A stretch of DNA of 10,832 nt from the NCBI GenBank assembly GCA_945492685.1, contig CALYUZ010000010.1, forward strand, positions 1 to 10,832. The letters run 5' to 3'. Positions 7,659 through 10,272 of this stretch are shown one piece after another. The stretch's first letter is position 1; each line of letters begins with the position of its first letter. Source of the DNA: an uncultured Methanomassiliicoccaceae archaeon. Lineage in GTDB: Archaea > Thermoplasmatota > Thermoplasmata > Methanomassiliicoccales > Methanomethylophilaceae. The notes under the pieces are model-generated. The model worked only from the letters and a program-made list of their open reading frames with translations, was not told the origin of the DNA and made no database searches. A program made the translations under genes and the position numbers.

Positions 7659-8951
7659 TTACTTCACGGGTTCCCATTTGGCGAGCTCGTTGACCTTCGC
7701 CAGGGTCGAACCCCTCATGATCTCCTCACGGGTGCGGTTCTCCCTCTCGTGGACGTCCAACGCACGGTTGGCGACCTCCACGGCCATCTCCTTGGGGATC
7801 ACGATGATTCCGGACTCGTCCCCGACGATCCAATCGCCGGTCCTGACCCTCTGTCCTCCGACGGTCACCTCTATGCCGATTCCGCCGTATCCCTTGGGTT
7901 CACCCGCACAGGGTGCGACTGTCCTGGAGAATGCGGGGAATTTCAGCTCCCTGATGTCGTCGATGTCCCTTATCGCACCGTCGATGACGATGCCGTTGAC
8001 GCCCTTTCCGATGGCGGAGCATGTGGCCAGTTCTCCCCATACTGCGACGGGTGCGCCTCCCACATCGACGACCAGGACATCACCCTCGGATGCCCTGTCT
8101 ATCGCCTCCACGGGTTTCGCCCAATCGCCGTTGGATGTCTGTACGGTGAGTGCGCGTCCGACCATCCTCTGTCTGTGCTGGAGTGACTGTGGAATGATTC
8201 CGAACATCACCCCCTGCTTGTGGAACGCATCGGATATGTTGCATGTGGAGACCCTGGAGAACGCCTCGAACAGGTCCTCCTCGGAGTATTTCTTCGCCAG
8301 GTTGGTGTCGATCTTGGCACCGGCCATTGCCTTCTTGACGTTCTCCGCGGCTCCTCTGATGTCCTCGGTCTTGATTATCGCGCCGCCGACGATGACGTCC
8401 GATGCCCCTGCCTCGACGTACTGTCCCGCGTTCTCCGCGGTGATCCCGCCTGCGACGGCCACGGGTATGGACACGGCATCCACGATCCTCCTGAGGACGT
8501 CGATAGGCGGTTCCGCACCCTTCATCTGTGTGTCGATCCCCATGTGGAGGCAGATGTAGGAGACCCCTAGCTTCTCGACCTCCTTGGCACGGGCGACCCT
8601 GTCCTCCACGTTGATCATGTCGACCATGATCTCGGCGCCGTACTTCCTGCCGGCCATCACGGCCTCCTCGATGGTGGAGTCCTCGGCGAGTCCCAGGACG
8701 GTGACGATGTCCGCACCGGCCTTGGCCATGATCTCGACCTCGAACGCGCCCACATCCATGGTCTTGGTATCCGCGATGATCTTCTTCCCGGGGAACTCCC
8801 TGCGCAGTGCGCGCACGGCCTCCGCACCCTCGCTTTTGATGAGGGGTGTTCCGGCCTCGATCCAGTCGGCACCTCCGTCCACCGCCTCGTGGGCGATGAC
8901 GACGCTTCTGTTCAGTTGCATGAGGTCCAATGCGATCTGCAATGTGGGCAT
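7659..8951 (-). CDS. hps: fusion of 3-hexulose-6-phosphate synthase and RraA-like domain
   Basis: Residues 1-210 form a TIM barrel of the OMPDC superfamily: LQIALDL (D8), IEAGTPLIKSEG (31-42), the diagnostic DTKTMD (61-66), LHMGID (135-140), VAGGIT (167-171) and VIVGGAI (186-192). This is 3-hexulose-6-phosphate synthase, which condenses formaldehyde with ribulose 5-phosphate; archaea lacking an oxidative pentose pathway run it backwards to make ribulose 5-phosphate. After a linker, residues 220-430 are an RraA/HMG-aldolase-like domain with GELATCSAIGKGVNG (306-320) and DGAIRD (324-329), which keep the Arg-Asp pair of the metal-dependent aldolases. Fusions of this type are known in archaea; the RraA half has no settled role there. 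No phosphohexulose isomerase gene is visible here. Start ATG 8951 fits a leaderless message; stop TAA. Convergent with deoA, a second pentose-phosphate gene. Confidence 0.92.
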   Translation of the reverse strand: MPTLQIALDLMQLNRSVVIAHEAVDGGADWIEAGTPLIKSEGAEAVRALRREFPGKKIIADTKTMDVGAFEVEIMAKAGADIVTVLGLAEDSTIEEAVMAGRKYGAEIMVDMINVEDRVARAKEVEKLGVSYICLHMGIDTQMKGAEPPIDVLRRIVDAVSIPVAVAGGITAENAGQYVEAGASDVIVGGAIIKTEDIRGAAENVKKAMAGAKIDTNLAKKYSEEDLFEAFSRVSTCNISDAFHKQGVMFGIIPQSLQHRQRMVGRALTVQTSNGDWAKPVEAIDRASEGDVLVVDVGGAPVAVWGELATCSAIGKGVNGIVIDGAIRDIDDIRELKFPAFSRTVAPCAGEPKGYGGIGIEVTVGGQRVRTGDWIVGDESGIIVIPKEMAVEVANRALDVHERENRTREEIMRGSTLAKVNELAKWEPVK

Positions 8952-9026: not shown

Positions 9027-9087
9027 GCCACTCAGCTCGCCCGTCTATCATCAGTGATCAGCACGAAAAACGAATCATCACCGTGGC
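9027..9087 (-). ncRNA. box C/D guide sRNA (2'-O-methylation guide)
   Basis: Reading the minus strand from 9087: GCCAC (9087-9083), one G, box C GTGATGA (9081-9075, perfect RUGAUGA), 13-nt guide (9074-9062), box D' CTGA (9061-9058), spacer TCAC, box C' TGATGA (9053-9048), 12-nt guide (9047-9036), box D CTGA (9035-9032), GTGGC (9031-9027). GCCAC and GTGGC pair as the 5-bp terminal stem. The single G between stem and box C supplies the third base of the kink-turn bulge bound by L7Ae. Total length is 61 nt, with guide lengths and D'-C' spacing usual for archaeal sRNAs that assemble with L7Ae, Nop5 and fibrillarin. A T-rich TATA-like box is centred 26 bases upstream. The D guide can pair with 16S rRNA around C1402; I do not recognise the target of the D' guide. 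Found by eye; no covariance search was run. Confidence 0.85.
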
Positions 9088-9108: not shown

Positions 9109-9117
9109 CTAAAAAAG
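9109..9117 (-). promoter_or_regulatory. probable promoter of the box C/D sRNA
   Basis: CTTTTTTAG on the minus strand (9117-9109) has its centre at 9113, exactly 26 bases before the first base of the terminal stem (9087), the archaeal TATA-to-start distance. A small stem CCGGA/TCCGG (9093-9106) lies between box and start. The box is T-rich rather than a TATATA type, so the call depends on spacing. Confidence 0.45.
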
Positions 9118-9193
9118 TTGTCGATTCACCCGTATCCGACTCCGAGGCCCCTACGGGGCCTATCCCGGACTCCTGCGAAGGGGGAGCGACAAC
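9117..9193. repeat. 77-base structured element with outer 7-bp inverted repeat and inner GC hairpin
   Basis: GTTGTCG (9117-9123) pairs with CGACAAC (9187-9193); inside, AGGCCCC (9145-9151) pairs with GGGGCCT (9155-9161) over a 3-base loop. CTCC/GGAG can add a further arm near 9170-9186. The minus-strand copy is followed by TTTTTT. It lies between the sRNA promoter and the promoter of the + operon and codes for nothing. It may be a non-coding RNA, a transcription-end element or a protein-binding structure. Confidence 0.4.
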
Positions 9194-9233
9194 CCTTATC
9201 TACGGTGGATGATACACCGTCAGCTTTTGGTGG
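9194..9233 (+). promoter_or_regulatory. promoter and ribosome-binding site of the 9239 operon
   Basis: CCTTATCTA at 9194-9202 is a TATA-like box predicting a start near 9224 and a leader of about 15 nt. GGTGG (9229-9233) is a Shine-Dalgarno-like site 5 bases before ATG 9239. The inverted repeat ACGGTG/CACCGT (9202-9220) lies between TATA box and predicted start, where a bound repressor would block transcription. Confidence 0.45.
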
Positions 9234-9238
9234 TATTC

Positions 9239-9712
9239 ATGTTCAAGAAAGGGAAGAAGGTGCGTGTGCTCTTCGTCGAGCAGAAGAACGACTACGTCTC
9301 TCAGATCGCGGAGCATTTCACGAACCAGCTGTATCCCGGGCAGTACGAGGCCTACAGCGCGGGACCCGAGAAGGACATCATCGACTGCGAGATGATCTCC
9401 AGCATGTACCAGTGCGGGGAGGACATCAGGAGGCAGGTCTCCAAGGACTTCAAGGACAGGGACTACCTCCGCGAGGATGAGGAATACGATGTCGTGGTGT
9501 TCCTGGAGAAGGCCACCTTCGATGAGTGGGCGACCAAGACGCCCTGGCAGGGGAAGCAGTTGCTCGCTCCCATGAAGATGAGGTCCGAGTTCACCGCTAC
9601 CGATGACCTCGAGCTCTACCACGAGTACGTAGCCGTCATGGAGCAGGTCAGGGACTGGGTGAAGGAGAACCTGAAGGATCCCGAGAAGCTCCTCTCCATG
9701 GTATCCGCATGA
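9239..9712 (+). CDS. low-molecular-weight phosphatase/ArsC-fold protein lacking catalytic residues
   Basis: The 157-aa protein aligns by eye with low-molecular-weight tyrosine phosphatases and thioredoxin-type arsenate reductases: VRVLFVEQKNDYVSQIAEHF (8-27) in place of the P-loop strand and helix, AYSAGPEKDIID (38-49) matching the SAGTxP segment, and CGEDIRRQVSKDF (59-71) matching the GIDIS..SK segment. In the P-loop CxxNxxRS, Asn17 and Ser21 are kept, but the nucleophilic Cys is Glu14 and the phosphate-binding Arg is Val20, so phosphatase or reductase activity is not expected. The start is ATG 9239 with GGTGG 5 bases upstream; an ATG at 9209 would add ten residues but lies before the predicted transcription start. 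It overlaps tsr3 by ATGA, so the two are translated together and its role may be tied to 16S rRNA maturation. Confidence 0.75.
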   Translation: MFKKGKKVRVLFVEQKNDYVSQIAEHFTNQLYPGQYEAYSAGPEKDIIDCEMISSMYQCGEDIRRQVSKDFKDRDYLREDEEYDVVVFLEKATFDEWATKTPWQGKQLLAPMKMRSEFTATDDLELYHEYVAVMEQVRDWVKENLKDPEKLLSMVSA

Positions 9713-10272
9713 TCCCCGTAATCATCTACGACAAGTGTCAATGCGACCCGAAGAAATGCACCGCCAAGCGCATGCTCAAGTTCGGTCTGGGGAAGGAGGC
9801 GAAGACCCTCGGGGCCATACCGAAGGGCTCCATCGTGCTGTCGCCGTTCTCCGACCGTGCCATGTCCCCGGCGGACATCGTCCATGCCCGCAAGGGCCTG
9901 GTCGTCATGGACCTGACATGGACCAACATAGACGAGTTCCCCCGCCTGAAGAAGGTGGAGGAGCGCGCACTCCCGTATCTCCTCGCATCCAACCCGATAA
10001 ACTGGGGAAGGCCGATGGAGTTGAACAGTGCCGAGGCCGTGATGGCCGCGCTGTGGATCCTGGGGGAGAGGGAGCAGGCGGAGCAGTTCATGGGACGCTT
10101 CAACTGGGCGCCGGAGTTTATGAGGCTCAACGGCGCCATGCTCGACGACTATTCCCGTGCCAAGGACAGCACGGAGGTGGTCCGTATACAGAACGAGTAC
10201 ATCGAATCCGTCGTCTCACAGGGGAGGCACGGAGAGCCCGGACCGGAGGACTCCGGGGACGAAACATCTTGA
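9709..10272 (+). CDS. tsr3: 16S rRNA aminocarboxypropyltransferase Tsr3
   Basis: SPOUT-fold enzyme (formerly DUF367) that moves the 3-amino-3-carboxypropyl group of S-adenosylmethionine to a hypermodified small-subunit rRNA base, a late step of ribosome assembly in archaea and eukaryotes. The 187-aa protein shows all family blocks: KCQCDPKKCTAKRM (9-22), SIVLSPFSDRAMSPAD (41-56), GLVVMDLTW (63-71), ALPYLLASNPINWGRPMELNSAEAVMAALWILG (87-119) and FNWAPEFMRLN (131-141). The last 15 residues are acidic and Gly/Pro-rich and probably disordered. ATG 9709 overlaps the preceding stop. Followed after 25 bases by the winged-helix gene. No truncation or motif loss seen. Confidence 0.95.
   Translation: MIPVIIYDKCQCDPKKCTAKRMLKFGLGKEAKTLGAIPKGSIVLSPFSDRAMSPADIVHARKGLVVMDLTWTNIDEFPRLKKVEERALPYLLASNPINWGRPMELNSAEAVMAALWILGEREQAEQFMGRFNWAPEFMRLNGAMLDDYSRAKDSTEVVRIQNEYIESVVSQGRHGEPGPEDSGDETS

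Follow-up and report, generated by a model that had tools for sequence, protein, structure and literature searches.

A box C/D guide sRNA gene kept across most of the Thermoplasmata, with 16S rRNA C1402 as its predicted target

Positions 9087 to 9027, on the minus strand of the window (the whole stretch of 10,832 nt analysed here, from an uncultured Methanomassiliicoccaceae archaeon), are a real gene for a box C/D guide sRNA, of the ordinary kind. The gene lies between two protein genes, has a predicted mature RNA of about 61 nt, and is kept over most of the class Thermoplasmata. We consider it likely that it is transcribed from its own promoter, that its D guide directs methylation of C1402 (numbering read off E. 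coli 16S rRNA), and that its D' guide is an orphan. The window is a contig of a 1.05-Mb, 67%-complete assembly of 200 contigs.

Read 5' to 3' on the minus strand, the gene opens with the 5' half of a terminal stem, GCCAC (9083-9087), and closes with the 3' half, GTGGC (9027-9031), which pair over 5 bp in the window. Between them, in order, are an unpaired G (9082), box C, GTGATGA (9075-9081), the 13-nt D' guide TTCGTTTTTCGTG (9062-9074), box D', CTGA (9058-9061), a TCAC spacer (9054-9057), box C', TGATGA (9048-9053), the 12-nt D guide TAGACGGGCGAG (9036-9047), and box D, CTGA (9032-9035). The original prediction, made from the letters alone, described the same order and spacings (GCCAC-G-GTGATGA-13 nt-CTGA-TCAC-TGATGA-12 nt-CTGA-GTGGC), which are right base for base, and its 3-nt k-turn bulge is found where the unpaired G separates stem from box C. 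All four boxes are exact for their type: C (RUGAUGA), D' (CUGA), C' (UGAUGA) and D (CUGA). A hairpin within the D' guide, picked out by eye, was dropped because several members have no such hairpin.

Boxes and terminal stem that persist in relatives, with compensatory changes, were the check proposed with the original prediction, and this is what the relatives show. The alignment used takes in 50 of 67 distinct sequences. Two-sided changes occur in five of the six terminal-stem pairs, filling 17 cells, compared with shuffled means of 2.1 and 5.4; none of 500 shuffles (which do not preserve relatedness among the sequences) is as high on either count, and every version with the stem slid is lower. 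The outermost of the six pairs probably lies outside the true stem, because it is unpaired in 30 of the 50 aligned sequences. Invariance of the boxes in this alignment is partly a matter of selection, since loci with deviating boxes were left unparsed. Eight of 80 loci did not parse as full sRNAs. Seven of these retain GACGGGCGAG-CTGA-GTGGC, with D' or C' deviating or with the copy cut by a contig end; the eighth, L118 in genome G277, was rejected as a chance match to the pattern, the rest of the RNA being absent. Box C, box D, the stem and the D guide are preserved in the copies read, and boxes D' and C' are looser in seven (D' read as CCGA or CAGA, C' as TGACGA or TGAAGA). At L029, L030, L032, L033, L047, L048 and L049, D' or C' deviates while box C, the D guide, box D and the stem are kept, a pattern that would fit weaker constraint on the D'/C' half in those seven copies.

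At E <= 0.001, a covariance model built on the 50-sequence alignment matches 130 of the 150 class genomes, and 85 of the 91 that are high-quality. Sequences it was trained on are bound to match; a hand count puts 106 of the 130 matched genomes outside the near families f1 and f2 and the four other training genomes (the family labels, f1 to f67, are anonymous). The model finds no match in the other 20 of the 150; six of these 20 are high-quality, and one of the 20, G044, is 99% complete. There is one copy per genome in all positive genomes but one; that genome, G447, has two (L304 and L305), with an identical 12-nt D guide. Comparing the 281-nt spacer region by blastn to 60 genomes, its own included, gives a match at E <= 1 in 53, and the best match is at E <= 8e-4 in 48. 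Besides that in its own genome, nearly all of these are confined to the sRNA segment; matches extending beyond it are found in G019 and G010. Of 389 genomes from the phylum, 56 contain an 18-base pattern spanning C', guide and D, and none its reversed control. A scan of named genomes for the pattern returns at least 117 stretches, and among the matches listed are records of Methanomethylophilaceae, Methanomassiliicoccaceae, Methanomassiliicoccales, Thermoplasmata, Ca. Methanoplasma and Ca. Methanomethylophilus, together with scattered Bathyarchaeota, Diapherotrites and bacterial records. Conservation and covariation thus support the reading as a guide sRNA with which the work began; that the gene is expressed, we infer.

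Upstream of the stem is a BRE/TATA-like promoter (9110-9121, minus strand), made up of ACAAC (9121-9117) and TTTTTTA (9116-9110), the latter being the T-rich box that the original prediction had pointed out. Among 72 loci anchored on the stem, A peaks at -33 to -31 and A/T at -28 to -22, where it reaches 96%; a further A/T pair stands at -9/-8 before the stem. This layout is that of an archaeal BRE/TATA promoter, with a predicted start at the stem base, where the distance rule from BRE/TATA to start in archaea puts it. Only about 20% of the C/D genes of archaea are reported to have TATA-like motifs (PMC7994747). On the plus strand, divergent from the sRNA gene, are a low-molecular-weight phosphatase/arsenate-reductase-like protein (9209-9712, PF01451) and then Tsr3 (DUF367; 9709-10272, NF002621 and PF04034), of the 16S rRNA aminocarboxypropyltransferase family. 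A divergent phosphatase-like or Tsr3 gene is present in 15 of 30 family loci. Of 41 parsed loci (L003-L050), sister families included, 25 have Tsr3 close to the sRNA, always divergent. A 16S-modifying enzyme adjoining a putative 16S guide is suggestive.

The original prediction gave no target, and the guide-RNA reading can be extended to one. By the fifth-nucleotide rule, the target base faces the guide base that stands fifth from box D or D' (PMC7994747). Applied to TAGACGGGCGAG, it selects position 9040 and, opposite it, the C of ACCGCCCGUCAA, which is C1402 on E. coli 16S; at 12 nt, the D guide is of the size (about 10-12 nt, target opposite the fifth base) usual for C/D RNAs. Relatives' rRNA was used for all targets because no rRNA was found in the 67%-complete genome itself. 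In two genomes of the same genus, G014 and G030, 16S C1402 ranks first by energy among 1,923 and 1,932 registers. The window's lineage forms only eight contiguous pairs there, guide positions 1 and 2 being mismatched to A1398 and C1399. In 50 parsed family members, where the D' guide varies at 0.68 bits per position, and in four unparsed ones too, the D guide's final 10 nt are invariant; this invariance is partly selection, because the parser, and the search for part of the loci, required the core. The guide is unusually constant, and its predicted target is an important one. In six genomes searched, the exact complement CTCGCCCGTCTA occurs only within the gene itself (five matches), and the perfect 12-nt targets beyond the gene come to one, TTCGCCCGTCTA, in G033. 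Among 30 of the 43 tRNA loci of G030 there is no convincing target, the best (8.4 with G-U) lying outside the tRNA body.

Tested as a single guide, the D guide is not significant against rRNA (24 of 60 shuffles are as good), and for this reason a test across lineages was adopted. Its 132 sequences (72 parsed, plus 60 of the 101 covariance-model matches without a ready locus, with 30 ready loci left out) reduce to 54 family-guide variants from 30 families, with 38 distinct guides. At least eight contiguous pairs form at 16S C1402 in 49 of the 54. It is also the best mean site for the 54 variants in the 16S and 23S rRNA of G036, scoring 8.04, a value that 2 of 1,000 column-permuted controls equal or exceed; this score weights G-U at 0.3, requires a Watson-Crick target base, and was chosen after the unweighted result was known, and the variants come from related lineages, all scored against this one rRNA set. 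The unweighted permutation of run counts, in which G-U counts as a full pair, is marginal (18 of 500 as high), and in the unweighted count G-U pairs bring 23S EC1323 level with C1402, at 49 of 54. The five variants below eight pairs at C1402 belong to f9 and f10. In these families the D guides that contain GACAGGC (L302, L328, L343, L356) lose pairing at position 7, both at 16S C1402 and at 23S C2558, possibly through decay or a change of target.

The D' guide behaves differently. In 50 family members it is T-rich, and its length is 11-14 nt in 49 of them, the 8 nt read for L136 being a parsing artefact. For the window's family its best rRNA site is no better than those of permuted guides, 49 of 500 being as good. 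One D' variant forms eight pairs with a G030 tRNA whose anticodon reads as Ser-CGA, no convincing match either. The D' guide of f2, TAAACCCAGCT, matches 23S G2581 with 11 pairs, and that of f3 matches 16S 962 with 10. Loci L146-L151, of f8 and f9, have a D' guide like TTCAGCCTTA common to the two families, with no clear target in the rRNA used. Judged by complementarity, the D' guide in the window's family is an orphan, and only the D guide has a consistent rRNA target; sister families differ. With the D guide constant and D' targets differing by family, one guide is kept while the other turns over. Both orphan guides and empty ones are described in archaea (PMC7994747; PMC4644070).

Two readings would bring the large subunit in. 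That 23S C2558 in the A-loop region (UUCGCCCAUUAA) is the main target of the D guide, or an additional one, is in our judgement unlikely. It is second-best for the 54 variants (7.32 vs a null 95% value of 6.58, the third site scoring 6.02), and guide position 2, a purine in all 54 and A in 41, fits the U of 23S and not the C of 16S. Where position 8 is T, as in 23 variants, 8-11 contiguous pairs form with 23S, but the other 31, the window's included, have C there, and a C-A mismatch then interrupts the 23S duplex. Eight or more pairs are thereby reached at 23S in only 23 of the 54 variants vs 49 at 16S, and for the window's own guide the 23S site is only rank 14 and 17 by energy. Moreover, CGCCC is common to both rRNA sites, so that a guide fitted to one partly matches the other. 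The likeness of the two regions goes further: in G036, 16S at about EC1400-1425 and 23S at about EC2556-2585 have similar strings, CGCCC..U.AAA and then GAGYUGGGUUU, and because both carry them, guides for one region partly fit the other. Between the two predicted target bases lie 20 positions in 16S and 23 in 23S. The D' guide of f2 fits both subunits near the same sites (23S G2581 with 11 pairs, 16S G1422 with 10 pairs, one of them G-U), which would let a single small RNA act on both functional centres. A bispecific D guide, directed to 16S C1402 and to A-loop C2558 in 23S, with lineages shifting between them through guide positions 2, 8 and 10, is conceivable from these matches, and we hold it as a rather doubtful proposal.

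The position of the gene suggests another alternative, in which the k-turn is a leader element within the hps 5' UTR, bound by L7Ae to control that gene, and no trans-acting RNA is made. The original prediction placed the sRNA upstream of hps, and in the window an hps-rraA fusion (bifunctional hexulose-6-phosphate synthase/ribonuclease regulator; 7659-8951, minus strand, NF005442 over its cut-off) does begin 75 nt downstream. The same arrangement, hps on the same strand within 200 nt, holds in 18 of 30 family loci. It is not constant, however: hps is not found within 200 nt downstream in the other 12 (one of which has only 128 nt of sequence), and has no match in the fetched loci of f2 to f5. 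Five of the 30 have none of hps, the phosphatase-like gene and Tsr3, several flanks ending at contig ends. Since a leader needs neither two box pairs nor a constant guide, and since, judged by its distance, the promoter would start transcription at the base of the stem, we regard control of hps as very improbable. Chance assembly of motifs in a spacer can be set aside with still more assurance, as next to impossible. The motifs are short, and the folding energy of the sRNA by itself is ordinary (z -1.4), but the core pattern TGATGA-N8-16-CTGA-N1-9-TGATGA, a single occurrence in the window, appears in none of 200 dinucleotide shuffles, in line with the small chance that the original prediction gave the set of boxes, and class-wide conservation and covariation of the stem speak against chance as well.

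A trans-acting C/D guide sRNA, the preferred reading, has close parallels among known RNAs. An Rfam search returns no family at gathering threshold on the sRNA stretch, and all 19 sub-threshold matches there are typed C/D-box. The best is archaeal sR2 (RF01139), at 31.7 bits and E 1.7e-5 vs a gathering threshold of 42, which leaves the RNA outside sR2; sR9 (RF01312) scores 22.8 bits and snoPyro_CD (RF00095) 19.1. These archaeal box C/D sRNAs have the same box order and sizes as the RNA here, but their guides differ from its guides, and none reaches its gathering score. Human SNORD43 and yeast snR70 guide the methylation equivalent to Cm1402. In Arabidopsis, AtU43 guides 18S Cm1645 (PMC11542601). 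Such eukaryotic snoRNAs share with the sRNA here the predicted target nucleotide and mechanism. Cm at the equivalent of C1402 is reported for E. coli (1402), human (1703), yeast (1639), Arabidopsis (1645) and P. abyssi (1369) (PMC11542601). The 16S modifications given for H. volcanii in PMC2584109 include none at 1402, so, as far as that list goes, Cm1402 is not universal in archaea. Tte sR152, like the sRNA here, has one working guide and another without rRNA complementarity; its working guide targets 23S (alignment position 2880, E. coli C2606), unlike the predicted 16S target here (PMC4644070). In the literature on archaeal C/D guides and C1402, supplements aside, we did not find this sRNA described, and it may have been predicted before.

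Two partners of such a particle are encoded: fibrillarin and Nop (Nop5) have matches in all seven genomes tested, the sRNA's own included. PF01248, used as the test for L7Ae, matches two proteins in each of six relatives, and one in the incomplete own genome, where it corresponds to the weaker paralogue (61.2 bits). Bacterial RsmI modifies the same nucleotide, as C1402 2'-O-methyltransferase, but as a stand-alone protein enzyme. No RsmI homologue was found in the seven genomes (the own one 67% complete) with a model that matches 12 of 14 controls, two of them the archaea M. jannaschii and S. acidocaldarius; this leaves room for an RNA-guided route to C1402.

That route would run as follows. 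Transcription would begin from the gene's own archaeal promoter, near the stem base. By analogy with the known system, L7Ae would bind at the C/D k-turn and at the C'/D' k-loop, with Nop5 and fibrillarin joining to complete the particle. The D guide core GACGGGCG is complementary to 16S at E. coli positions 1400-1407, a stretch of the decoding centre in which C1402 comes to face guide base five; because of that placement, fibrillarin would methylate the 2'-hydroxyl of C1402. Expression, assembly of the particle and the methylation itself are steps that we infer.

Ribose methylation at C1402 is reported from all three domains, its bacterial maker being a stand-alone enzyme, and the sRNA offers a candidate route to it in most of one archaeal class, gut methanogens included. 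If the bispecific proposal is true, one small RNA would act on the functional centres of both ribosomal subunits. A guide held constant over 30 families, beside a partner guide that empties or changes, would be a clean natural series for the study of guide evolution.
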